Positions 27,385-45,881 of a DNA stretch of 64,000 nt are shown one piece after another; the first letter of the stretch is position 1, and every line of letters begins with the position of its first letter. Under the pieces are notes generated by a model. It saw only the letters and a program-made list of their open reading frames with translations, was not told the origin of the DNA and did no database searches. The position numbers were made by a program, and so were the translations under genes. The DNA lies in the NCBI GenBank assembly GCA_020832235.1, contig JAFIEZ010000007.1:372001-436000 (forward strand), in the 5' to 3' direction. This DNA comes from Bacteroidota bacterium. GTDB taxonomy: Bacteria; Bacteroidota; Rhodothermia; Balneolales; HLUCCA01.

Positions 27385-28758
27385 CTATTTCGTACTTGTC
27401 ATCGATTTGCCAACCAGATAAGGGCATTTAGCAGCAGATTCGTGCAATGATTTATGCACAATAGCCAGACCTTCATCAATCTGGTCGGGAGTGATATTCA
27501 ATGGCGGACGGAACCGGATGGTATTGGTACCGCATGGAAGAATCATCAGACCATTATCATAGCAGGCTTTAACAACCTCGTTACGTGCATGAGTATTGGG
27601 CAGATCAAATGCGCACATCAACCCCTTACCTCTTACGCCATTAACAAAGGATACCTCTTCTTGTAAAGCATCCAGCTTCTTGAGCAGGTGTGCTCCGGTA
27701 CTAGCGGCATTTTCAACCAGATTATCTTCCTCAATAATCTCCAGGTAACGCTGAAAACGTACCATATCAACCAGGTTGCCACCCCATGTAGAGTTGATTC
27801 GTGAAGATTTGTGAAATACGTTTGTTTCAATATCATCAATGCGTGTTGAAGCCAAAATACCGCAAACTTGCGCTTTTTTCCCGAATGCCAGAATGTCGGG
27901 CTTAACATAATGCTGATGAGCCCAGAACTTACCGGTCAGACCAACACCGGTCTGTACCTCATCGTATATCAACAATGCTTCGTTTTCATCGGCCAATCGA
28001 CGTAATTCCTTATGGAAATTCAATGAGAAATGGTTATCGCCACCCTCGCCTTGAATGGGCTCAATAATAATCGCTGCAATGTCATCTTTGTGTGTTTTGA
28101 AAAACATTTCAGCCTGAGCAATAGAAAGCTTCTCATTGGCTTCTGTATGTGCAACGTTCTCTGCAGTCAACGGGAACACCTGCTTCGGGTTGAGTATGCG
28201 CGGCCATGGAAACTTAGGGAAGTAGGCAACTTTATTAGGCTCGGTATTGGTAAGCGACATGGTATACCCGGTTCGACCATGAAACGCCTGCTCAAAATGC
28301 AAAACCATGTGACCCTTTTCCTGACGATAACCTTTCCTGAAATTCTTCTGAACCTTCCAGTCAAATGCTACCTTCAGCGCGTTTTCAACCGCTAAAGCTC
28401 CACCGGCTACGAAAAAGGTGTACGGCATGTAGGAGGGAATACCAACACGAGAAAAAGTCTCCACAAATTCTGCCATGTACGTCGTATATACGTCAGAGTT
28501 GGAAGGATTATGGGCCGCAACATGAGCCAGTTTACTCATAAACTCATGGTCACCAACCAATTTCGGATGGTTCATCCCAACCGGGTTCGAAGCAAAAAAT
28601 GTAAAGAAATCAAGATAGTTCTTGTTGTGCTTGGAATCATAGAGATACGGGCCCTGGCTCTTATCCAGGTCCAGAACGACATCAAAGCCGTCTGCCAGAA
28701 TGTGCTTCTTCAGCACGTTATGCACTTCATTTGGTGCAATCTGTTGTGTTGTAATCAT
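27385..28758 (-). CDS. lat: L-lysine 6-aminotransferase
   Basis: This 457-residue class III PLP aminotransferase moves the epsilon-amino group of lysine to 2-oxoglutarate, giving aminoadipate semialdehyde. The PLP Lys lies in LAFGKKAQVCG, matching the LAT family, and the LIYDEVQTGVGLTGKFWAHQ and PCGTNTIRFRPPLNI segments fit too. The whole-length wording (SNPVGMNHPKL, HNPSNSDVYTTYM) is LAT-like rather than ornithine or GABA aminotransferase. It probably serves lysine breakdown. No aminoadipate semialdehyde dehydrogenase is next to it. Divergent from the tRNA gene. Confidence 0.9.
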   Translation of the reverse strand: MITTQQIAPNEVHNVLKKHILADGFDVVLDLDKSQGPYLYDSKHNKNYLDFFTFFASNPVGMNHPKLVGDHEFMSKLAHVAAHNPSNSDVYTTYMAEFVETFSRVGIPSYMPYTFFVAGGALAVENALKVAFDWKVQKNFRKGYRQEKGHMVLHFEQAFHGRTGYTMSLTNTEPNKVAYFPKFPWPRILNPKQVFPLTAENVAHTEANEKLSIAQAEMFFKTHKDDIAAIIIEPIQGEGGDNHFSLNFHKELRRLADENEALLIYDEVQTGVGLTGKFWAHQHYVKPDILAFGKKAQVCGILASTRIDDIETNVFHKSSRINSTWGGNLVDMVRFQRYLEIIEEDNLVENAASTGAHLLKKLDALQEEVSFVNGVRGKGLMCAFDLPNTHARNEVVKACYDNGLMILPCGTNTIRFRPPLNITPDQIDEGLAIVHKSLHESAAKCPYLVGKSMTSTK

Positions 28759-32853: not shown

Positions 32854-33513
32854 TTACATGTACCAGTAAACGGCCCAAAAATGACTGGCTGTACCTGCCA
32901 TAACAAAAAGATGCCATATTTCATGAAATCCGAAAACATCAGGCCAGGGATCAGGTTTTTTAAGTCCATAAATCACAGCGCCGATAGTATAAAAAAGTCC
33001 ACCGGCTATAGTCCAGTATAAAGCTGCTTCAGTGATATTGCCAGACATATTCGGCAGGCTCCATACGGCCAACCACCCCATAAATACGTAAAAACCCGTA
33101 GAAAGCCATCGCGGTGCATGAAACCAGACCAGTTTAATGAGGATGCCAGCTTTGGCCAAAACCCAAATGGTGATCAGATACACCCATTTTGTTGTGCCAT
33201 CCATAGCCAGCAGACAATATGGAGTATACGTACCCGCTATAAGCACATAGATCATAGAGTGGTCCAGTTTGCGTAATAGCAGCGTACCGCGCTCATCCAG
33301 ACGAAGCCAATGGTAAACAGCACTGGCCGTATACAAAAAGACCATTGACAGTCCAAAAACAGTAACAGCCAGAAAACGTACATCGTCTCCAGTGTGAATG
33401 GTTTGACGGATAAGCAATATCAATCCAATGAGCGATAAAACCGCCGCAAAAGCGTGAGTTAAACTGCTCACCGGATCTTTAATCCGACTTGACAACGCAG
33501 ACCACACCTGCAT
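32854..33513 (-). CDS. Haemolysin III family (PAQR-type) membrane protein
   Basis: This 219-residue protein has seven predicted membrane helices and the family's signature residues: SAVYHW, LDHSMIYVLIAGTYTPY and the C-terminal HEIWHLFVMAGTASHF, whose His residues may bind zinc as in PAQR receptors. Despite the family name, haemolysis is not established for most members; membrane-lipid homeostasis is more likely. Its ATG overlaps the phosphohexomutase stop by one base. Confidence 0.9.
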   Translation of the reverse strand: MQVWSALSSRIKDPVSSLTHAFAAVLSLIGLILLIRQTIHTGDDVRFLAVTVFGLSMVFLYTASAVYHWLRLDERGTLLLRKLDHSMIYVLIAGTYTPYCLLAMDGTTKWVYLITIWVLAKAGILIKLVWFHAPRWLSTGFYVFMGWLAVWSLPNMSGNITEAALYWTIAGGLFYTIGAVIYGLKKPDPWPDVFGFHEIWHLFVMAGTASHFWAVYWYM

Positions 33514-35252
33514 CAGGCTACACCTAAATCGCTCATTACAGCGTCAATTTTCTTGTCGAGTTCTGCTGATACTGTATCGAAGTCCTCTTTTCTGTTCAGC
33601 TGACCTTTTACGCTGCAGTAAAACTTGATTTTTGGCTCTGTGCCCGACGGTCGCGCGGATATGACGCTGCCGTCTTCGGTAATAAACTGCAGTACATCTG
33701 AGGCCGGTAGGTCTATAGCTTCCTGTTTTCCGGAAGAAAGTTCTCTGGATGTCTGTGCCGCATAGTCTTTAAGCGTACGAACCGGCGAACCGCCCAGTAC
33801 ACTCGGTGTATCTTCCCGGTACGATTTCATCATGGCTTTGATTTCCTCAGCCCCAGACTTGCCCTTTTTGGTAATTGAAATAAGCTTTTCTTTGTAGTAC
33901 CCGTGCTGAACATATAGCCCAATCAAAGCATCAAACAACGATTGTCCCTTATCTTTGTAATAGGCAGCCATTTCGGCAATCATCGCAGCCGCTACCACAG
34001 CATCTTTGTCTCTTGCGTGCTCTCCAACCAGATACCCATAGCTCTCTTCACCGCCAACTACAAAGGTTTGTTCTCCTTCCAGTCGCGTCATAAGATCCCC
34101 TATAAACTTGAAGCCGGTTAATACATTATAACAGGTTACGTTCATGGATGCTGCAATACGATCCATCAACTGTGATGTTACAATCGTTTTAACCACATAC
34201 TGCTTCCCGTCTAGTTTGCCGGCCTCGTTCCATGCCGTCAGTACATAGTGCATGAGCAAAGAACCTGTCTGATTCCCATTTAATAACACCAGTTCACCGT
34301 TGTTGTCGCGAACCGCAATGCCAACCCGGTCGGCATCAGGGTCGGTAGCCATCACCAGGTCTGCTCCCACTTCCCGGGCCTTCTGCAGTGCCATAGTCAA
34401 CGCTTCCTGCTCTTCGGGATTCGGATAAATCACGGTGGGGAAGTTTCCATCGAATGTAATCTGTTCGTCAACCAAAATCACGTTGCTGAAACCAAATCGT
34501 TTTAAAACATCAGGAACAAGGGGATACCCGGTACCGTGAATCGGGGAAAAAACGATTTTCATGTCATGCTGCCGTTTTATGGCGTCTGCAGATATTGATT
34601 CCCGGGCCAGTCGTGCAACGTATTGTTCATCCATTTCGGCCCCCAGCTTTTTAATCAACGCCGGATTTCCGTCAAACTTGACTTCATCAACCGAAGTAAT
34701 GTTGGCAACCTCCGCTACTACATTCTTGTCATGTGGTGCTATAAGCTGACCTCCGTCATTCCAATAGGCCTTGTAACCTGAATACTCTTTTGGGTTATGA
34801 GAAGCCGTCAACATTACACCGCTCTGACATCCTAACTCACGTATAGCATACGATAACTGGGGGGTAGGACGCAGCTCTTCAAACATGTACACCTCAATAC
34901 CATTCGCAGAAAATACATCTGCGGTAATTTGAGCAAATGTCGTGGCATTGTTACGGCAGTCGTGCGCAATAGCTACCTTAATCGGGGTGTCACCATACAC
35001 TTTTTTCAAATAGTTCGATAGTCCCTGAGTTGCCATTCCAATCGTATAGCGATTAATTCGATTCGAGCCAATTCCCATAATACCACGCAAACCACCAGTG
35101 CCAAATTCAAGATCTCTGTAAAATGCATCAGTCAGTTCAGTAGTTGCATTTTCTTTAATCAAACGGCGGATTTCATCTTTTGTTTGCTGGTCGTAGTTAC
35201 CATTCAACCAGGTCTCCATATTCTTTTTGGTGGTTGCGTCAAGTTGTAGCAT
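33513..35252 (-). CDS. pgcA: Alpha-D-phosphohexomutase (PgcA-type phosphoglucomutase/phosphomannomutase)
   Basis: This 579-residue enzyme interconverts hexose 6- and 1-phosphates; its length matches PgcA of Bacillus. The catalytic phosphoserine loop is LTASHNPKEYSGYK. The metal-binding loop DPDADRVGIAV, sugar loop GGEESYGYLVG and phosphate loop RPSGTEPKIKFY are all present. Whether glucose or mannose is preferred cannot be told. It leads an operon with the haemolysin-III and Stealth genes and is divergent from the symporter operon. Confidence 0.92.
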   Translation of the reverse strand: MLQLDATTKKNMETWLNGNYDQQTKDEIRRLIKENATTELTDAFYRDLEFGTGGLRGIMGIGSNRINRYTIGMATQGLSNYLKKVYGDTPIKVAIAHDCRNNATTFAQITADVFSANGIEVYMFEELRPTPQLSYAIRELGCQSGVMLTASHNPKEYSGYKAYWNDGGQLIAPHDKNVVAEVANITSVDEVKFDGNPALIKKLGAEMDEQYVARLARESISADAIKRQHDMKIVFSPIHGTGYPLVPDVLKRFGFSNVILVDEQITFDGNFPTVIYPNPEEQEALTMALQKAREVGADLVMATDPDADRVGIAVRDNNGELVLLNGNQTGSLLMHYVLTAWNEAGKLDGKQYVVKTIVTSQLMDRIAASMNVTCYNVLTGFKFIGDLMTRLEGEQTFVVGGEESYGYLVGEHARDKDAVVAAAMIAEMAAYYKDKGQSLFDALIGLYVQHGYYKEKLISITKKGKSGAEEIKAMMKSYREDTPSVLGGSPVRTLKDYAAQTSRELSSGKQEAIDLPASDVLQFITEDGSVISARPSGTEPKIKFYCSVKGQLNRKEDFDTVSAELDKKIDAVMSDLGVA

Positions 35253-35587: not shown

Positions 35588-37036
35588 ATGCATTGGGTAG
35601 ACCTCCTTGTTTTTATAGTATATATGATTGGGATTCTGGGCGTTGGATTCTACTTCATGCGTCGCAACAAAGGAGATGAAGACTATTTCCTGGCCGGCCG
35701 ATCAATGTCGTACCCACACATTGGGCTATCTGTTGTTGCAACCGACGTTGGGGGCGGTTTCTCGATAGGTTTGGGAGGACTGGGCTTCATTCTTGGTATT
35801 TCCGGTTCATGGATGCTATTCACCGGATTGATGGGGGCATGGCTCAGCGCTGTGTTCCTCATACCAAAAGTTAAAAAGCTATCTTCCTCCAAACGCTTTT
35901 TTACCATGCCCCAACTCTTCGGGCACTATTATAGTCCCACAGCTGCACTGGTTGCAGGATTTATTTCAGCCATAGGATACATCGGATTCACAAGCTCTCA
36001 GATGCTGGCAGGTGCCAAACTGGCCTCGGCATCATTCCCCGAACTATCATTGATACATGCCCTTTATCTGATGGGATTCATAATTGTGGTATACACCGTA
36101 ATGGGTGGTATCAAAGCCGTAATATATACAGATACGTTTCAGTGGGCATTGCTCATGGTTGGGCTAATATTTGTAGGAATACCCATTGCCTATCTCGCTG
36201 TGGGAGGATTCGATGCCATCTCGGAAGCAGTTCCCCGTTCGTTTCTCAGGCTCGATGCTATAACCCATTATGATTTCATAAACTGGTGTATAACCATTAT
36301 GCCCATCTGGTTTGTAGGGATGACGCTTTATCAGCGTATATACGCCTCGCGAGACGAGAAAGAGGCCAAAAAAGCCTGGTATCTGGCAGGATTATTTGAA
36401 TGGCCGATTATGGCATTCATGGGCGTGTTTCTTGGTCTCTTAGCCAGAGTAGCAGCAGAACAGGGGATGTTTGCATACCTCGGCTATGCCGATGCAACGG
36501 GAATGGACGCGGAGATGGGACTTCCTTTACTGCTATCAACCGTTCTGCCTATCGGTTTTATGGGACTTATGATGTCGGCTTATTTTTCCGCTGTTATGTC
36601 AACCGCCGACAGTTGCCTTGTAGCCGCATCCGGCAATGTGGTCACTGATATTATGCGAAAAGGGATGGGGTTCAGAAACAGAGCTATCACCGACATAAGG
36701 TTGTCACAGTATGTAACGTTGGCATTGGGCGCGCTGGCACTCGGCATCGCCGCTTCTTTTGAAAATGTACTGGACATCATGCTCTGGTCATACGCTTTTA
36801 TGGTTTCCGGACTCTTTGTGCCCGTTATTGGAGCGTTGTACTGGAAGAAAAGCACAGCAGCCGGTGCGGTATCTGCCATGATATCCGGTGGAGCCACCAC
36901 CGTTTGGCTTAGCGTGTCCCCACCCCAATTTCTGAGCGAAAACTGGGATCCCAACCTTTACGGCATTTCAGTCGCTCTGCTTGTTTTTATTTTCATCTCG
37001 CTGATCACCCAAAAGCAAAATGAATCGGGTAATTAG
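35588..37036 (+). CDS. Sodium:solute symporter
   Basis: This SSS-family carrier of about 482 residues uses the sodium gradient to import a small organic solute. About 13 hydrophobic helices are visible. The family segments EDYFLAGRSM near residue 33, the Gly-rich stretch (VATDVGGGFSIGLGGLGF), and MSAYFSAVMSTADSCLVAASG match SSS. Substrate is unknown; the downstream racemases, peptidase and amidohydrolase point to an amino acid or peptide-like compound. The ATG at 35588 follows GGGAGGG; a TTG four codons earlier is unlikely. First gene of a six-gene operon. Confidence 0.9.
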   Translation: MHWVDLLVFIVYMIGILGVGFYFMRRNKGDEDYFLAGRSMSYPHIGLSVVATDVGGGFSIGLGGLGFILGISGSWMLFTGLMGAWLSAVFLIPKVKKLSSSKRFFTMPQLFGHYYSPTAALVAGFISAIGYIGFTSSQMLAGAKLASASFPELSLIHALYLMGFIIVVYTVMGGIKAVIYTDTFQWALLMVGLIFVGIPIAYLAVGGFDAISEAVPRSFLRLDAITHYDFINWCITIMPIWFVGMTLYQRIYASRDEKEAKKAWYLAGLFEWPIMAFMGVFLGLLARVAAEQGMFAYLGYADATGMDAEMGLPLLLSTVLPIGFMGLMMSAYFSAVMSTADSCLVAASGNVVTDIMRKGMGFRNRAITDIRLSQYVTLALGALALGIAASFENVLDIMLWSYAFMVSGLFVPVIGALYWKKSTAAGAVSAMISGGATTVWLSVSPPQFLSENWDPNLYGISVALLVFIFISLITQKQNESGN

Positions 37037-37090
37037 CGCCTAAAAAGCCGATATTACTATCAAAGAAAATTATAATGAACGGCTAAGACT

Positions 37091-37531
37091 ATGAACATTG
37101 TTATTATTGATTCTACTAATTACGAACAAACATCATTTACAAAAGAAGCGATCGCCGATTTCCTCGTAACAGCTTTGGAGCAGTATGGCGATAAAAAAGA
37201 GGACATTCTTAAATGTCTCGACTATGCGCTTTCACGCGAACCGGGTAAAGGAGGGATGATTACCTTAACTCATGAAAATGAAAAGATTACTGGTGTTGTT
37301 GTGATAAATCACACCGGAATGGCCGACTACATACCGGAACACATTCTGGTCTATATTGCGGTAGACTCCTCCCAGCGCGGGAAAGGGGTGGGAAAAGCGC
37401 TCATGGAAACCGTAATTAAGGCAACATCCGGATCTATAGCCCTACACGTAGAGCCCGATAATCCGGCTCGTCGATTGTATGAAAGGCTAGGCTTTACCAG
37501 TAAATACTTGGAAATGCGATTGCATAAATAA
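37091..37531 (+). CDS. GNAT-family N-acetyltransferase
   Basis: This 146-residue protein has the acetyl-CoA pyrophosphate loop QRGKGVGKALME near residue 98 and the C-terminal NPARRLYERLGF signature. It probably acetylates a small amine or amino acid, possibly the substrate handled by its operon partners; this is inference. It lies 54 bases after the symporter and four bases before the racemase gene. Confidence 0.88.
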   Translation: MNIVIIDSTNYEQTSFTKEAIADFLVTALEQYGDKKEDILKCLDYALSREPGKGGMITLTHENEKITGVVVINHTGMADYIPEHILVYIAVDSSQRGKGVGKALMETVIKATSGSIALHVEPDNPARRLYERLGFTSKYLEMRLHK

Positions 37532-37535
37532 ATTC

Positions 37536-38606
37536 ATGGCATATTTAAAACTGTACCGGGACAGACTTAAACATAACTATAATCACCTCAAGAAAGTATT
37601 TGGCGACAAAGACGTATCATGGGGTGTAGTGACAAAACTGTTTTGTGGGAACGAGCTTTTCATCAGAGAAATCGCAGATCTCGGTATAAAAGAAATGCAC
37701 GATTCACGCATAAGCAACCTCAAGGCAATCAAGCGTATTGATCCGTCTATTCAGACAGTGTACATCAAACCACCGCCACGACACAGTATCAAGAATATCA
37801 TCAAATATGCAGATGTTAGCTTCAATACGGAGTTTGAAACAATAAAGCTCTTATCTGATGAAGCTGTACTGCAAGATAAAACCCATAAAATCATAATTAT
37901 GATTGAGATGGGTGACCTGCGTGAAGGTGTGATGAGAGATGAATTGGTTGAGTTTTACGCCAGGGTATATAACCTGCCTAACGTCAAAATTGTTGGAATT
38001 GGAACCAATCTGAATTGCCTGCATGGAGTTATGCCAAGCAGTGATAAACTTATTCAGCTCTCACTCTACAAACAAATTATTGAACTCAAGCTTGGAATCA
38101 CGATTCCATGGGTTTCTGGTGGAACAACGGTAACGCTTCCGTTGTTAATTCGAGGGGACTTACCTTCGGGTATCAACCATTTCCGGGTTGGCGAAGCACT
38201 GTACTTTGGCGCCGACCTGTTCTCTGGGGCTACCATTGAGGGCATGCGAGATGACATCCTCCGTCTGTACACCGAAATCATTGAAATTCACGAGAAACCG
38301 GTCGTTCCTAGTGGAGATATCGGAGCCGACCCCATGGGTAATATTATGACAATTGACGAATCTCTGATAGGTCAAACATCTACCAGAGCCATAGTTGATG
38401 TTGGTCAGCTTGATATTAATCCCGATTTTTTAATACCGGAAAGTTCGGATGTTAAGGTAGTGGATGCCAGCAGCGATATGCTTGTTCTGGATGTGGCCGA
38501 CAATAAACGAAATCTGAAGGTTGGCGATATGATATCCTTCAATGTTAAATACATGGGAGCACTGGGTATCATGAATTCCCGTTACATAGACAAAGTTGTT
38601 GAATAA
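37536..38606 (+). CDS. Ornithine-racemase-like PLP enzyme (alanine racemase fold)
   Basis: This 356-residue fold-type III PLP enzyme resembles clostridial ornithine racemase. Shared wording includes DSRISNLK, IIIMIEMGDLREG, LNCLHG, WVSGG, LPSGINHFRVGE and SGDIGADPMGN. The PLP Lys is in VTKLFCGN, where ornithine racemase has VKSMCAN. It therefore probably interconverts L and D forms of a basic amino acid, although other substrates are possible. It starts four bases after the GNAT stop and is followed two bases later by the M23 gene. Confidence 0.82.
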   Translation: MAYLKLYRDRLKHNYNHLKKVFGDKDVSWGVVTKLFCGNELFIREIADLGIKEMHDSRISNLKAIKRIDPSIQTVYIKPPPRHSIKNIIKYADVSFNTEFETIKLLSDEAVLQDKTHKIIIMIEMGDLREGVMRDELVEFYARVYNLPNVKIVGIGTNLNCLHGVMPSSDKLIQLSLYKQIIELKLGITIPWVSGGTTVTLPLLIRGDLPSGINHFRVGEALYFGADLFSGATIEGMRDDILRLYTEIIEIHEKPVVPSGDIGADPMGNIMTIDESLIGQTSTRAIVDVGQLDINPDFLIPESSDVKVVDASSDMLVLDVADNKRNLKVGDMISFNVKYMGALGIMNSRYIDKVVE

Positions 38607-38608
38607 TT

Positions 38609-39196
38609 ATGGCAGTTTTTACTTCTAAAGCATTTGGTCCAGTTATGCAACCGGCCGAACCCCTGCGTGCAGTTGACCTCACGGATGGAGGCTATCCCGG
38701 TAGGCTAATAGACAAGCAATGGCTGGTGGGCGGCTACCTTGAGAACCGCAAAGGGATGTATACCTCCGAAATATTCAACAACGAGCGGTATATACACCTC
38801 GGAATCGATATTTGGGCTTCAGCCGGAACACCCGTGTATGCCATCAGGGACGGTATTATCTTCGGCTTGAAAGATAATAACAACGACCTTGATTACGGTC
38901 CCACCGTCATAACGCAACATGAGGTAAATGGAATTAAGCTTTGGTGCCTGTATGGTCACCTTAGCAGGGGTTCAATAGGAACGCTGGAAAAAGGTGCTGA
39001 AATTAAACGTGGCGACAGGCTTGCTCTGCTTGGGTCTACGGCGGAGAATGGAGGATGGCTACCCCATCTTCATTTTCAGGTAAGTCTTGAAGAGCCGAAA
39101 GAAATAGATATGCCCGGTGTTTGTTCGCCGGAGGAAGTAGATAAAGCCAGGCTCACCTATCCAGATCCACGACTTCTCCTAGGCCCTTTGTACTGA
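38609..39196 (+). CDS. M23-type metallopeptidase without signal peptide
   Basis: This 195-residue protein has the full LytM/M23 zinc site: HLGID (H-x3-D), YGHLS and HLHFQ. Family members usually cut Gly- or D-Ala-containing peptides in peptidoglycan. Unusually, there is no signal peptide or membrane anchor; the N-terminus is soluble (MAVFTSKAFGPVMQ). It therefore may act in the cytoplasm on a small imported peptide, or its catalytic fold may be used for another amide. Tightly packed between the racemase-like and M20 genes. Confidence 0.85.
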   Translation: MAVFTSKAFGPVMQPAEPLRAVDLTDGGYPGRLIDKQWLVGGYLENRKGMYTSEIFNNERYIHLGIDIWASAGTPVYAIRDGIIFGLKDNNNDLDYGPTVITQHEVNGIKLWCLYGHLSRGSIGTLEKGAEIKRGDRLALLGSTAENGGWLPHLHFQVSLEEPKEIDMPGVCSPEEVDKARLTYPDPRLLLGPLY

Positions 39197-39202
39197 TATG
39201 TC

Positions 39203-40336
39203 ATGAATGTTACGCCTTTAATTGCTTTGCGGCATGAACTTCATCGTCACCCCGAATTGGCGGGTGATGAACGGGAAACAGCACATCGCATAGAAACGTT
39301 CTTACATCAACTCAAGGGATGGAAAATCACTCGAAACGTTGGTGGATACGGTATTTTGGCTGAATATTGCACAGACAATCCTGGAACACACACGGTATTC
39401 AGAGCGGAGTTGGATGCATTGCCTATACAAGAGCGAAGCGGCGTACCCCATGCCTCACAGCACAAAGGTGTAGCTCACTTGTGTGGTCATGATGGTCATT
39501 CGGTTATACTTTGTGGCTTAGCTGCGTATCTGTCGCGTAATAATCCTGCATCCGGTAGAATTACCCTGCTATTTCAGCCGGCCGAGGAAACAGGACAGGG
39601 AGCTGCTGCCATGCTGAAAGACAAGGCACTGGCAGACTTTAAACCGGATCGTATTATTGCCTTACATAACATGCCCGGGGAAGCCCTGGGTTCGGTACTA
39701 CTCCGAAATGGTACGATGTTGGTAGCTTCTACGGGCGCTCAGATATATTTTCAAGGACGGTCAGCTCATGCTGCCGAACCGGAAAAAGGCAGCCCCGCAT
39801 GGCCTGCAATGCAGATCTTAATACAAGAGGCTTTATCATGGCCTTCTACGAAAGTTTCACTTCCTGAGCAGGTAAAAATCACACTTGCGGGTTGCAATAC
39901 TGGCGGACCTTTTTACGGTACTGCAGCTGGTGACGGCACCGTGTGGCTTACCTTACGTGCCTATGAGACGCACACGCTAAATACACTGAAACAACTGCTT
40001 GCAGAAAAGGCTGACTCCTTGGCCAGAGTATTCGATTTGTCAGTAAATGTTACCTTCGCAGATGAGTTTGATGCAACAGTTAATGAGTCCAAACTTACCA
40101 ATGAGTTTATAGCATTAATGAAGAGCACTGGAATACCAGCTAAGGAATTGGCAAACCCATACAGCTATTCTGAGGATTTTGGACGCTTTTCAAGTAAAGC
40201 ACCCTCACTATTTTTCGGGCTTGGTGCCGGTGAAGCCCAAAAGCCATTACACTCTCACGAGTATGATTTCCCCGATCAGTTAATTGAGAGGGGTATGGAG
40301 ATATTTAAATTAATTGTTAGTAAATACCATCAATGA
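39203..40336 (+). CDS. M20-family amidohydrolase (aminoacylase/amidase type)
   Basis: This 377-residue zinc hydrolase resembles M20D amidohydrolases such as hippurate, N-acyl-amino-acid or IAA-conjugate hydrolases. Metal-binding segments are HLCGHDGHSVI, PAEETGQGAAAML and HNMPG, with a C-terminal HSHEYDFP His. Residues 180-290 form the lid/dimerisation domain. It would remove an acyl group from an amino acid, possibly the reverse of the GNAT enzyme two genes upstream. Its last four bases overlap the start of alr. Confidence 0.88.
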   Translation: MNVTPLIALRHELHRHPELAGDERETAHRIETFLHQLKGWKITRNVGGYGILAEYCTDNPGTHTVFRAELDALPIQERSGVPHASQHKGVAHLCGHDGHSVILCGLAAYLSRNNPASGRITLLFQPAEETGQGAAAMLKDKALADFKPDRIIALHNMPGEALGSVLLRNGTMLVASTGAQIYFQGRSAHAAEPEKGSPAWPAMQILIQEALSWPSTKVSLPEQVKITLAGCNTGGPFYGTAAGDGTVWLTLRAYETHTLNTLKQLLAEKADSLARVFDLSVNVTFADEFDATVNESKLTNEFIALMKSTGIPAKELANPYSYSEDFGRFSSKAPSLFFGLGAGEAQKPLHSHEYDFPDQLIERGMEIFKLIVSKYHQ

Positions 40337-41502
40337 CGTTCGCTCCCCCAAATTTTTCGGGCTCTGTAATTGAAATTTCACGCTCAGCCCTGCTAAATAA
40401 CTACAATTTTCTTCGCGCGAAAATTGGGAAACGTACCCTATTGTCGTCCGTTGTTAAAGGAAACGCTTATGGCCACACAATACCCATGTTTGTGCCATTG
40501 GCTGAGTCATGTGGTATAAACCATTTTTCTGTGTTTAGCGCTGACGAAGCTTGGCAGGTATTTCAAGCCAGGACAACCGATGCTGGAATTATGATTATGG
40601 GAAGTATTCCCGATGAAGCATTAGAATGGGCGGTTGAGAACGGCATAGAAGTAATAATTTTTGAGCTCGAACGACTAAAAAATATCTTAGCTGTCGCAAA
40701 AAAACTGGGCAAAAGAGCCCATATTCACCTCGAGTTGGAGACCGGAATGAACCGAACGGGACTGGAAGCTACGCTATTTGATGACGTTAAAGCTATACTG
40801 AACGATTATGCCGGTCATTGGCAACTAAAAGGAATATGTACGCATTATGCCGGAGCGGAGAGTACGAGCAATTATCTTCGGGTTCGCCGGCAAATGAAGC
40901 GATTTCGCAATTTGGTAGAGGAGCTGCGCGACCGAGGACTGAAAGCCGAACGACTCCATACGTCCTGCTCGGCAGCTGCCTTATCATACCCGGAGGCTGC
41001 AATGGATATGGTTCGCATCGGCATCGCCCAATATGGATTTTGGCCCAGTCGGGAAACATGGATGCATCATTACCTCAAACGACCGGGTGAACCTGACCCA
41101 CTCAAACGAGTGATGAGTTGGAAAAGCAGCGTTATGAGTGTAAAGCAAGTCCCTGCCGGAGATTTCATTGGATACGGAACCAGCTATCTCGCTGGCGTAC
41201 CCACACGAATTGCAACCGTTCCGGTCGGATACTCACATGGCTTTGCGCGAAGTTTAAGTAATCTTGGCAGGGTATTGGTAGCCGGTCATAGAGTTGCTGT
41301 AGTCGGGCTTATCAATATGAATATGATGATGATTGACATTACGGAAGTCCCTCACGTAACAAGAGGGGATGAGGTCATGATCATCGGTACGCAGGAAGGC
41401 CAGGAGGTTTCGGTTTCATCGTTCAGTGAGCTTTCACAAAACCTAAACTACGAGACACTGGTCAGACTTCCCGGTTCCGTACCAAGAGTTGTTGTGCCAT
41501 AA
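40333..41502 (+). CDS. alr: Alanine racemase
   Basis: This 389-residue PLP enzyme makes D-alanine from L-alanine. The PLP Lys is Lys42 in VVKGNAYGH, and the second catalytic base is Tyr281 in FIGYGTSY. The C-terminal LINMNMMMIDIT and RGDEVMIIG segments fit Alr. It is free-standing, not fused to MurF as in many Bacteroidota. The start overlaps the M20 gene by four bases (ATGA), making it the last gene of the operon. It may serve the operon's pathway, general cell-wall supply, or both. Confidence 0.93.
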   Translation: MTFAPPNFSGSVIEISRSALLNNYNFLRAKIGKRTLLSSVVKGNAYGHTIPMFVPLAESCGINHFSVFSADEAWQVFQARTTDAGIMIMGSIPDEALEWAVENGIEVIIFELERLKNILAVAKKLGKRAHIHLELETGMNRTGLEATLFDDVKAILNDYAGHWQLKGICTHYAGAESTSNYLRVRRQMKRFRNLVEELRDRGLKAERLHTSCSAAALSYPEAAMDMVRIGIAQYGFWPSRETWMHHYLKRPGEPDPLKRVMSWKSSVMSVKQVPAGDFIGYGTSYLAGVPTRIATVPVGYSHGFARSLSNLGRVLVAGHRVAVVGLINMNMMMIDITEVPHVTRGDEVMIIGTQEGQEVSVSSFSELSQNLNYETLVRLPGSVPRVVVP

Positions 41503-41680: not shown

Positions 41681-42763
41681 ATGAAAAAAAGCACAAAATT
41701 AATTCTATATGCACTGATTCCGCTTGTTTTGGTGGGCGCTTTTGTGCTGAGATCTGTATTTATAGATGGGAATGAGTCAGAAACTGCTCCTCAAACTACA
41801 CAGAGGTCCGCACAGGGTGGAGGCCCTTTGTCTGTATCAGGAGTGATTATCCAGCCTGAACCATTTAGTGAACGGATTATCACTACAGGGAATATCATCG
41901 CCAATGAAGAAGTAATGCTCAGACCGGAAGTATCTGGCAGGGTTACCGAGCTATTTATACAGGAGGGAAACGCTGTAAAACGTGGCGATGTACTGCTCAA
42001 GATTAATGATGCTGATTTAAGAGCAGAATTACTGCGAACACGGTTGCAGCTGGAGTTGGCCGAAATCCGCGAAGCGCGACAAAAAGCATTACTTGAGAAC
42101 CGAGCTATTGCTGCTGAAGATTATGAAGTTGCCCTTAATCAGGTCAATACCCTAAAGGCTGAAATAGAACTCATTCAGGCCAGAATCGAAAAAACGGAAA
42201 TCCGGGCACCCTTCGATGGTATTATCGGCCTCAGAAATATAAGTCCTGGTGCCTACATTACGCCTTCCGACATCGTTGTTTCATTACAGGATTTTGACAG
42301 AATCCGCCTAGATTTCTCTATTCCTGAACGTCACGCCGCTCGAGTTCGTAACGGCGACAGGGTTGAGTTTACAAGACTCGGTACACAACGTAGGTATAAC
42401 GCCCGTATCATAGCAATAGAACCTCGTATAGATGCTACCACTCGTACACTCAGTTTACGCGCTTTTGCCGAAAATCCGGGCAGAGAAATTATCCCGGGAT
42501 CATTTGTGGAAGTTTCTTTGGAGTTACGCGAAATCCCCGATGCCATGCTTATCCCAACCCAGGCACTCATACCTGAACTGGGTGGCGCCAGCGTATTTAT
42601 TGCCGATAACGGAAGCGCTCAACAGGTAAGGGTTCAATCGGGTGTGCGAACTGAAGACAGGGTTCAAATAACCAGTGGAATTTCTCCCGGCGATACGGTT
42701 TTAACATCAGGTATTCTTCAACTCAGGAACGGGTTACCCATTCGTGTAAATACGGGAAACTAA
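41681..42763 (+). CDS. RND efflux periplasmic adaptor (membrane fusion protein)
   Basis: This 360-residue adaptor links an inner-membrane RND pump to an outer-membrane channel. It has one N-terminal membrane anchor (residues 7-25), no lipobox, a lipoyl/barrel-sandwich part (VSGRVTELFIQEGNAVKRGDVL), a short coiled hairpin, and the second half-lipoyl IRAPFDGIIGLRNISPG. Beta-barrel and C-terminal domains follow (RTLSLRAFAENP). One base separates it from the pump gene. No outer-membrane factor gene is in the window. Confidence 0.93.
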   Translation: MKKSTKLILYALIPLVLVGAFVLRSVFIDGNESETAPQTTQRSAQGGGPLSVSGVIIQPEPFSERIITTGNIIANEEVMLRPEVSGRVTELFIQEGNAVKRGDVLLKINDADLRAELLRTRLQLELAEIREARQKALLENRAIAAEDYEVALNQVNTLKAEIELIQARIEKTEIRAPFDGIIGLRNISPGAYITPSDIVVSLQDFDRIRLDFSIPERHAARVRNGDRVEFTRLGTQRRYNARIIAIEPRIDATTRTLSLRAFAENPGREIIPGSFVEVSLELREIPDAMLIPTQALIPELGGASVFIADNGSAQQVRVQSGVRTEDRVQITSGISPGDTVLTSGILQLRNGLPIRVNTGN

Positions 42764-42764
42764 T

Positions 42765-45700
42765 ATGACGCTCTCATCCTTAAGCATCAGAAGACCGGTT
42801 CTGGCATCTGTGATGTCAATCGTCATTATACTCTTCGGCCTGATTGGTTATAATTACCTCGGTGTGAGGGAGTATCCTGCCGTTGATCCGCCATTTATTA
42901 CCGTAACCACCAACTATGTTGGCGCAAATGCAGATGTAATTGAATCTCAGATTACCGAGCCGCTCGAAGAGTCAATAAATGGAATTGCCGGAATCCGAAC
43001 GCTTACCTCGGTTAGTCGTGAGGGGCGTTCAACCATTACCGTTGAATTCGGTCTGGATGTAGACCTTGAAGCGGCCGCCAATGATGTGCGTGACCGTGTA
43101 TCCCGTGCTTCGAGGCTGCTCCCGCCAGATGTAGATAACCCCACTGTAACAAAAGCAGATGCCGATTCAAGCCCAATTGTCTTTCTAAATGTCAGCAGCT
43201 CTACCAGAAATGAACTTGAAATTTCAGATATTGCTAATACCCTCATAAGGGAACGGGTGCAAACCATCCCAGGCGTCTCGGAAGTGCGGGTTTGGGGTGA
43301 AAAGCGATTCTCCATGCGACTCTGGATGGACCCCGGACGATTAGCCGCTTACGGTCTTACTCCTCTGGATGTAAGACAAGCCATCGATAGAGAAAATATT
43401 GAGTTGCCTAGTGGTCGAATTGAAGGATTTAGAACGGAATTGTCAGTCCGCACAATGTCACGGCTCGAAACGCCTGCAGAGTTTAACGACCTTATTATTA
43501 AAGACGACGGAGTTAATGTAGTTCGGTTTCGCGACGTTGGAGTCGCTATGCTTGGTGCCGAAAATGAACGCACAGTGCTCAAGCGTGATGGTGTACAAAT
43601 GGTTGGTGTTGTGTTAATTCCTCAGCCCGGAGCTAACAATGTTGCCATAGCCGACGAGTTCTACAACCGCCTTGAAAGTATACAGCGCGATCTTCCCGAA
43701 GATATTCAACTGGCCATAGGCTTCGACATCACCGAATATATTCGAGATTCTATTGATGAGGTTAAACAAACAGTTATCATCGCTTTTATTCTGGTGGTCC
43801 TCATCATTTTCTTGTTCCTGCGCGACTGGAGGACAACCATTATCCCTACTATTGTTATACCTATTGCATTAATCGGGGCCTTCTTTGTCATGTATATCGC
43901 AGGGTTCTCGATAAATGTACTTACCATGCTCGGTATTGTATTGGCTATAGGACTGGTGGTGGATGATGCCATTGTGGTCATGGAGAACATCTACTCCAAG
44001 ATTGAGCAAGGAATGGAACCTGTAGAAGCAGGTATTCGTGGTGCAGCTGAAATCTTTTTTGCAGTAATATCTACTACAACTGCTCTTGTTGCTGTATTTC
44101 TTCCGGTAATCTTCCTGGAAGGACTTACAGGGCGACTTTTCAGAGAATTTGGTATGGTGCTTGCCGGCTCTGTTATCATATCATCTTTTGTGGCGCTGAC
44201 CCTCACGCCCATGCTGTCCAGCAAAATTCTCAAGAAACGTGAAAAACAAAATGTTATCTACCGGGCTACTGAACCCTTTTTTAGTGCATTAAACAAAGGC
44301 TACAGAACCTCACTGCGCTATTTTATGAAGGTGAGGTGGATGGCATTCGTCATTATAGCTGTTTCAGCGGGCGCAATTTACTGGGTAGGGTCATCCCTGC
44401 AGACCGAACTTGCTCCACTGGAAGATCGAAGCAGATTGCGTGTCTTTGTAAGTGCCCAGGAAGGGGCCACGTTCGAGTATATGGATGAGTACATCGACAA
44501 TATCGTATCGGTAGTGAAAGATACCGTCCCGGAGTCACAGGCAATCATATCCGTTACTTCACCGGGTTTTGGGGCCGCAAGTTCCGTAAACACCGGATTT
44601 GTAACCCTCGTACTGAACGACCCCTCCGAGCGTAGCCGCACACAGCAGGAAATCGCCAATGATCTCACCCAGATACTCAGGGGCTATACCGGAGCCCGTA
44701 CATTTGTATCTCAAGATCCAACTATTGGTGACCGCAGGGGAGGTCTACCTGTTCAATATGTAATTCAGGCCCCAAATTTTGAACGACTTAAAGAAAAATT
44801 GCCTGAGTTTTTAGAAGCCGCCAACGACAATCCCTCTTTTTCAGTAGTCGATGTAGACCTTAAATTCAACAGACCTGAATTAAGAATATCCATAAACCGA
44901 GACAGAGCGCGGGCGCTTGGAGTGTCTGCACTCGATATTGCTCAAACCCTGCAACTGGCTTTTAGCGGTCAACGTTTTAGTTTTTTCATCATGAATGGAA
45001 AGCAATATCAGGTCATCGGTCAGGTGAAACGAGAATTCAGAGATCAGCCATTAGACCTTCAATCACTCTTTGTTAAAAACAACAGAGGAGAGCTTATACA
45101 GCTGGATAATCTGGTTACTATCGAGGAAGAAAGCAGTCCGCCGGCATTATTTCGCTTCAATCGCTACGTAAGTGCCACGGTTTCAGCCGGACTTGCCAAT
45201 GGTGTGTCACTAGGTCAGGGTATAGATGCAATGGATAAAATAGCAGCTGAAGTGCTTGACGATTCTTTTAGTACAACCCTTGCCGGAACATCACGTGATT
45301 TCGCCGACAGCAGTTCGAGCCTTGTTTTTGCCTTCCTGCTCGCTATTGTTCTCATATATCTCGTACTTTCAGCACAATTTGAGAGTTTCAGAGATCCATT
45401 CATTATCTTATTTACCGTTCCGCTGGCTGTCGCAGGTGCCGTTTTATCTCTGTATATATACGGTCAGAGCTTGAACGTTTTCAGTCAGATTGGGATCATC
45501 ATGCTCGTTGGCCTGGTAACCAAAAACGCTATTCTGATTGTAGAATTTGCCAATCAACGCAAAGCTGCCGGATTGGATATCCGCGAAGCCATTGTGGATG
45601 CTGCCGCCGTTCGTTTCAGACCTATTCTAATGACGAGCCTTTCTACTATTCTTGGTGTAGCTCCTATTGCATTGGCTATCGGGGCTGGCGCCGAAAGTAG

Positions 45701-45881
45701 AATTTCTATGGGTATTGCGGTGATAGGAGGGTTGATTTACGCAAGCTTACTCACACTCTATGTCATTCCAGCCATCTATACCTTCTTTTCCAGTAAAACA
45801 GCGTCTGTGAGCAACCTTAATGTGGATGAAAATCTTATTGAATCCGAAAAGGCTATGGAGTCGGGTACGGTATCTGCTTAA
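42765..45881 (+). CDS. RND (HAE1-type) efflux transporter
   Basis: This 1038-residue proton-driven pump of the AcrB/MexB/MdtBC type has twelve membrane helices and two large periplasmic loops. Proton-relay residues are visible: the Asp pair in GLVVDDAIVVMENIY on helix 4 and the Lys in LVGLVTKNAILIVEFANQ on helix 10. The N-terminus SIRRPVLASVMSI is typical. It probably exports hydrophobic toxins or antibiotics; specificity cannot be read from sequence. Cotranscribed with its adaptor. Confidence 0.95.
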   Translation: MTLSSLSIRRPVLASVMSIVIILFGLIGYNYLGVREYPAVDPPFITVTTNYVGANADVIESQITEPLEESINGIAGIRTLTSVSREGRSTITVEFGLDVDLEAAANDVRDRVSRASRLLPPDVDNPTVTKADADSSPIVFLNVSSSTRNELEISDIANTLIRERVQTIPGVSEVRVWGEKRFSMRLWMDPGRLAAYGLTPLDVRQAIDRENIELPSGRIEGFRTELSVRTMSRLETPAEFNDLIIKDDGVNVVRFRDVGVAMLGAENERTVLKRDGVQMVGVVLIPQPGANNVAIADEFYNRLESIQRDLPEDIQLAIGFDITEYIRDSIDEVKQTVIIAFILVVLIIFLFLRDWRTTIIPTIVIPIALIGAFFVMYIAGFSINVLTMLGIVLAIGLVVDDAIVVMENIYSKIEQGMEPVEAGIRGAAEIFFAVISTTTALVAVFLPVIFLEGLTGRLFREFGMVLAGSVIISSFVALTLTPMLSSKILKKREKQNVIYRATEPFFSALNKGYRTSLRYFMKVRWMAFVIIAVSAGAIYWVGSSLQTELAPLEDRSRLRVFVSAQEGATFEYMDEYIDNIVSVVKDTVPESQAIISVTSPGFGAASSVNTGFVTLVLNDPSERSRTQQEIANDLTQILRGYTGARTFVSQDPTIGDRRGGLPVQYVIQAPNFERLKEKLPEFLEAANDNPSFSVVDVDLKFNRPELRISINRDRARALGVSALDIAQTLQLAFSGQRFSFFIMNGKQYQVIGQVKREFRDQPLDLQSLFVKNNRGELIQLDNLVTIEEESSPPALFRFNRYVSATVSAGLANGVSLGQGIDAMDKIAAEVLDDSFSTTLAGTSRDFADSSSSLVFAFLLAIVLIYLVLSAQFESFRDPFIILFTVPLAVAGAVLSLYIYGQSLNVFSQIGIIMLVGLVTKNAILIVEFANQRKAAGLDIREAIVDAAAVRFRPILMTSLSTILGVAPIALAIGAGAESRISMGIAVIGGLIYASLLTLYVIPAIYTFFSSKTASVSNLNVDENLIESEKAMESGTVSA

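Follow-up and report, generated by a model that had tools for sequence, protein, structure and literature searches.

In the D-glutamate pathway of DgcN and DgcA, an N-acetyltransferase is coupled to a racemase, and a later deacetylation is expected; DgcN belongs to the DUF1611 family and DgcA is a non-PLP enzyme. Orr of amino-acid-fermenting Clostridia is a fold III racemase. AblA and AblB isomerize a diamino acid and then N-acetylate it with a GNAT enzyme, making the compatible solute Nε-acetyl-β-lysine (PMC1224877). In Salmonella, an Orr-family gene lies beside amino acid permeases and DokD (899 bits against a cutoff of 700), a D-ornithine/D-lysine decarboxylase according to the STM2360 work cited in PMC7857480. 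Here, we describe a six-gene unit in a 64,000-nucleotide stretch of a Balneolales genome (contig JAFIEZ010000007.1, positions 372,001 to 436,000; hereafter, the window) that is predicted to resemble AblA/AblB or DgcN/DgcA in working and is a member of neither. Its enzyme families are known, and their combination seems undescribed: as the original prediction had proposed, no pathway with this set of genes was found in the open-access literature, which was the scope of the search, subscription papers lying outside it. The genes of the locus are listed below, together with a transaminase gene located outside the operon.

35588 (ATG) to 37036, + strand: SSF, a PutP-like Na+/solute symporter (482 aa; PF00474, 142.5 bits)
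37091 to 37531, + strand: GNAT N-acetyltransferase, core gene (146 aa; PF13508 [Acetyltransf_7]/PF00583 [Acetyltransf_1])
37536 to 38606, + strand: ORR, an ornithine-racemase-like fold III PLP enzyme, core gene (356 aa; Ala_racemase_N, 58.3 bits; invariant Lys34)
38609 to 39196, + strand: M23 metalloprotein, cytosolic type, accessory, mainly in Balneolales (195 aa; PF01551, 62.3 bits; all zinc ligands present)
39203 to 40336, + strand: M20D amidohydrolase of the N-acyl amino acid deacylase type (377 aa; Peptidase_M20, 110 bits; TIGR01891, 207.3 bits against a cutoff of 153.75)
40333 to 41502, + strand: ALR2, a second alanine racemase family enzyme (389 aa; Ala_racemase_N [PF01168], 158 bits, and C domain [PF00842], 133 bits; TIGR00492, 271.8 bits against a cutoff of 168)
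27385 to 28758, - strand: L-lysine 6-transaminase (Lat), outside the operon (TIGR03251, 668.6 bits against a cutoff of 520.8)

The six genes are a genuine operon that is kept in many Bacteroidota. Open reading frame calls reproduced the coordinates and spacings first reported for them (gaps of 54, 4, 2, 6, and -4 bases, in order, the last being an overlap), and the family assignments agree with the presence of two different fold III racemases, ORR and ALR2. The divergent upstream neighbors, a phosphoglucomutase-like gene (33513 to 35252) and a TrhA/HlyIII gene (32854 to 33513), are unrelated to the cassette by Pfam and NCBIfam. A scan of the locus for promoters and terminators was uninformative, promoter-like sites being no commoner than in shuffled sequences. 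RND efflux adaptor and pump genes (41681 to 45881) start 178 bases 3' of the cassette, a position kept in several relatives.

The idea that these genes form one unit is borne out by our neighborhood sample of 115 loci, in which GNAT and ORR are direct neighbors in 83 (median gap, 2), SSF and GNAT in 78 (median gap, 3), and M20 and ALR in 57 (median gap, -1); such recurrence indicates that the arrangement is more than chance. Comparative genomics, the check suggested in the original prediction, revealed no breakup of the cassette in relatives, and ORR was found in 27 of 41 near relatives. The order SSF-GNAT-ORR-M23-M20-ALR2 is that of Balneolales. In Marivirga and Cesiribacter, it is SSF-GNAT-ORR-M20-ALR2, SSF-GNAT-M20-ALR2-ORR is seen in several further lineages (Flavobacterium, Fulvivirga, Pedobacter, and Saprospiraceae), Pontibacter and Cyclobacterium retain SSF-GNAT-ORR, and a bare GNAT-ORR pair is all that remains in some Flavobacterium. 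A module conserved in shuffled order suggests a shared function rather than inherited synteny. A complete Balneolales-type cassette was also present on a contig labeled Candidatus Nealsonbacteria (PWOE01000024.1), which is probably misbinned.

Co-occurrence was assessed in 297 Bacteroidota genomes, with presence defined by scores above 250 bits for ORR, 120 for GNAT, 570 for SSF, and 199 for M20. ORR is present in 41 of them, spanning 10 families, several of which also contain members lacking ORR. The cassette GNAT occurs in all 41 ORR-positive genomes and in a single one of the 256 ORR-negative genomes (G107), the next best match scoring 38 bits. ALR2 was found in 32 of the 41 ORR-positive genomes and in none of the 256 others, so that 9 of the 41 have GNAT-ORR without ALR2; SSF is present in 32 ORR-positive and 3 ORR-negative genomes, and M20 in 33 and 19, respectively. 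Fisher P values range from 1e-49 to 6e-23 and are overstated, the genomes being related. GNAT-ORR is thus an inseparable core, accompanied in most cases by the symporter, M20, and ALR2. In several ORR-positive genomes (e.g., G014 and G137), ALR2 is not linked to ORR; its restriction to ORR-positive genomes even then counts as functional evidence.

The profile matches and the AlphaFold2 (AF2) model place ORR in an ornithine-racemase-like family with a fold III PLP racemase fold, its ornithine activity being putative. The best NCBIfam model is NF040742 (Orr), matched at 319.5 bits, below the curated cutoff of 480. ORR is about 35% identical over its full length to Orr from Acetoanaerobium, and in our tree it forms a distinct Bacteroidota clade apart from Orr. 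Because of the missed cutoff and the separate clade, we do not name it Orr; a further difference from the clostridial systems is that the cassette carries no aminomutase or thiolase genes. The predicted catalytic lysine, Lys34, is invariant in 19 sequences. A sequence search of the PDB (E value of 0.001) returned no meaningful relative, just two short matches to designed proteins; the top PDB matches of the AF2 model (pLDDT of 90) are fold III alanine and lysine racemases (probability of 1.00), including the lysine racemase 4dza and Bsr enzymes. The AF2 model of GNAT (pLDDT of 91) has the GNAT fold, and a fold search yielded generic GNATs alone, among them polyamine and aminoglycoside acetyltransferases. 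The possibility that the cassette GNAT is an AblB homolog was rejected, no similarity being found.

Judging from its sequence, ALR2 is an alanine racemase family enzyme with a Bsr-type residue and without an apparent export signal. All catalytic positions tested are kept (conserved residues K42, R141, H171, R228, Y281, Y300, and Y373), and the catalytic Lys and Tyr are retained in 60 of 60 cassette copies. The position of GsAlr Asp313 is occupied by Asn in 75/75 ALR2 copies versus Asp in 12/12 housekeeping enzymes whose sequences were extracted correctly (a thirteenth, from L001, was in the wrong reading frame and was set aside), and all 60 cassette copies carry Glu, His, or Gln instead of the carbamylated Lys. 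The ALR2 Asn aligns with that of the broad-specificity racemase Bar (4dyj). This Asp-to-Asn exchange is a natural feature of Bsr enzymes and makes M. tuberculosis Alr, in which it was introduced as D322N, resistant to D-cycloserine; there, it lowers the affinity for the inhibitor 240-fold (PMC10288493). We regard it as a hint of broader specificity in ALR2. The enzyme also keeps the equivalent of Tyr354, which favors small substrates. A housekeeping Alr, 25 to 35% identical to ALR2, is present besides it. By eye rather than by a signal predictor, no N-terminal hydrophobic stretch was seen in the translated ALR2 sequence, unlike the periplasmic Bsr and Bar.

Three clues from comparative data point to diamino acids: the neighbors of Orr-family genes, the nearest relatives of the symporter, which are Abl-linked, and the Bsr-type Asn of ALR2; the original prediction, drawn from one sequence, had no evidence in this direction. 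The cassette SSF scores below every NCBIfam SSF equivalog cutoff. Relatives in ORR-negative genomes overlap the AblA/KamA and AblB genes in two loci (L274 and L276) and lie directly behind AblA in a third (L275); in L276, AblA (781 bits) and AblB (327 bits) both exceed their cutoffs. The SSF of L274 is 62% identical to that of the cassette and the other Abl-linked SSFs are about 50% identical, and in the tree these proteins nest within the cassette SSF clade, so that a symporter of the same subfamily is found in the operon of both systems. In contrast to AblA/AblB, the cassette has a PLP racemase instead of a radical SAM aminomutase, an unrelated GNAT, and the additional M20, ALR2, and M23. 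By NCBIfam, lysine 2,3-aminomutase and AblB are absent from the cassette proteins, and AblB was not detected above its cutoff in any ORR-positive genome searched, and it was not detected in the window's genome. We also considered mutual exclusivity of AblB and ORR; they showed no overlap, but with AblB-like matches in just 2 of 77 genomes, this is not enough to tell.

In addition to the plasmid-borne Salmonella locus, which differs from the cassette in having a decarboxylase in place of the acetyltransferase and deacylase and another permease family, an Orr-family gene lies immediately behind a DUF1611 gene, overlapping it by 4 bases, in five loci on Vibrio, Ruegeria, and Phaeobacter plasmids (L260, L261, L264, L266, and L269). 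The three DUF1611 proteins scanned, from Vibrio and Ruegeria plasmids, match the DgcN N-acetyltransferase at 154 to 158 bits (cutoff, 480). Among the cassette proteins themselves, NCBIfam gave no match to DgcN or DgcA. Taken with GNAT-ORR in Bacteroidota, the plasmid pairs indicate that the racemase-acetyltransferase pairing arose with two unrelated acetyltransferases. Stress-type genes (HflK/HflC, NhaA, GroES/GroEL, and Hsp20) lie near several of the plasmid loci. The Lat gene, which is possibly related to the cassette, lies close to it in conserved synteny in several families of Balneolales and adjoins an ornithine aminotransferase (RocD) gene in Balneolaceae. We rejected this neighborhood as proof of ornithine catabolism, since RocD is absent above its cutoff from the window's genome and both genes also occur in ORR-negative Balneolaceae.

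The cassette probably converts amino acids of the ornithine or lysine type between their two enantiomers and adds or removes an acetyl group. Our leading reading of how it would do so, still a tentative one, is a diamino acid module in which ORR and GNAT would together produce an N-acetylated D-diamino acid, with M20 and ALR2 reversing this and the symporter acting as importer. ORR would racemize an amino acid resembling ornithine or lysine, and GNAT would acetylate one amino group, trapping a neutral, nonproteinogenic N-acetyl-D-diamino acid; Nδ-acetyl-D-ornithine and Nε-acetyl-D-lysine are the first candidates. Deacylation by M20 and the broader racemase ALR2 could run the reverse reactions, turning over the pool, while the symporter may bring in substrate or product with Na+ and the M23 protein of Balneolales could act as an extra hydrolase on a small peptide, liberating the amino acid. 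The role would be akin to that of Nε-acetyl-β-lysine, i.e., a diamino acid is isomerized out of protein use, acetylated, and stored as a solute. The inseparability of GNAT and ORR over 10 families, also as a bare pair, fits such a two-step pathway, and of the two earlier guesses, N-acyl D-amino acid synthesis agrees well with a core made of an acetyltransferase and a racemase. The confinement of ALR2 to ORR-positive genomes and the three clues above likewise speak for this reading. Several points weigh against this making and trapping of an acetylated D-diamino acid: opposing arms encoded in a single operon would run idle without regulation, ORR is just about 35% identical to Orr and sits in its own clade, GNAT is unlike AblB, Flavobacterium from fresh water and Pedobacter from soil have cassettes as well, the Tyr354 equivalent is kept, and the link to RocD is weak.

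A role in salvaging or detoxifying D-diamino acids from outside the cell appears almost as likely. Here, the symporter would take up D-ornithine or D-lysine in free or N-acylated form, M20 would deacylate it, ORR and ALR2 would convert D to L forms for catabolism, and GNAT would acetylate excess D-amino acid, as DgcN does with D-glutamate. The presence of an importer alongside a deacylase and two racemases suits uptake and use, and the adjacency of Orr relatives to DokD in Salmonella and to DgcN-like proteins in the five plasmid loci, as well as the proximity of Lat and RocD to the cassette in Balneolaceae, are in line with this account. However, where GNAT and ORR form a bare pair, a linked importer and deacylase are lacking, the acetyltransferase would counteract a pure salvage operon, and the distribution of RocD and Lat described above speaks against this account. 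We consider it very improbable that the cassette provides tolerance to racemase inhibitors such as D-cycloserine, with ALR2 less inhibited and GNAT acetylating the inhibitor. The Asn of ALR2 at the position of M. tuberculosis Asp322 would agree with it, but this residue is natural in broad-spectrum racemases (PMC10288493), a simpler account; moreover, 9 of the 41 genomes have the core pair without ALR2, and no inhibitor-producer context was seen.

Processing of an imported D-amino-acid-containing peptide or muropeptide, cleaved by M23 in the cytosol before M20 and the racemases convert its residues, is an unlikely alternative on balance. The M23 protein has all of the canonical metal ligands (H63, D67, H117, H153, and H155) and, as first reported, no N-terminal hydrophobic stretch that would indicate export, and M23-M20-ALR2 and M23-ALR2 clusters exist outside Balneolales (L235 and L237). 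The earlier suggestion of peptidoglycan fragment import nevertheless fares poorly, because M23, the sole peptidase, is missing from most of the cassettes in the 115 loci, being mainly a Balneolales addition, and its family is widespread in ORR-negative genomes. The cassette also lacks a muropeptide permease, amidase, or ligase, and SSF proteins are not known as muropeptide carriers. M23 is a member of the operon in the window and the least conserved partner, and we rejected it as a core part. Its best NCBIfam relative is PRK06148, a protein of about 1,000 aa; a cytosolic-type M23 family (38609 to 39196 in the window; G075, G159, and G257) occurs in Bacteroidota both on its own and embedded in such proteins. 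No shared pathway emerged from the neighborhoods of stand-alone M23 genes or from those of unlinked ALR2 and M20 genes. For M20, the next model after TIGR01891 is NF038260 (DoeB2, N-acetyl-diaminobutanoate deacetylase; 200.5 bits against a cutoff of 550).

Although the six genes are conserved across the phylum and their core co-occurs almost perfectly, we could find no function assigned to the unit in the open-access literature. Substrates can be predicted from the cassette for three proteins to which annotation pipelines give only generic names, namely, the acetyltransferase, the second alanine racemase, and the carrier, and a new pool of acetylated D-amino acids could come to light in bacteria that are common in the sea and in soil. 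More speculatively than the enzymatic scheme itself, the N-acetylated D-diamino acid might be a compatible solute or storage compound of a class not yet described, turned over by a deacylase and a broad racemase of its own; if so, it would be the Bacteroidota counterpart of Nε-acetyl-β-lysine, reached via racemization and acetylation.

Another ALR2-type racemase, 47 to 50% identical to ALR2 of the window, is encoded in four loci (L241 to L244). It follows a protein of about 660 aa (without a Pfam match in the L241 copy) and, on contigs that extend far enough, an ATP-grasp protein, and this cluster is a possible D-amino-acid ligase operon of Balneolales.
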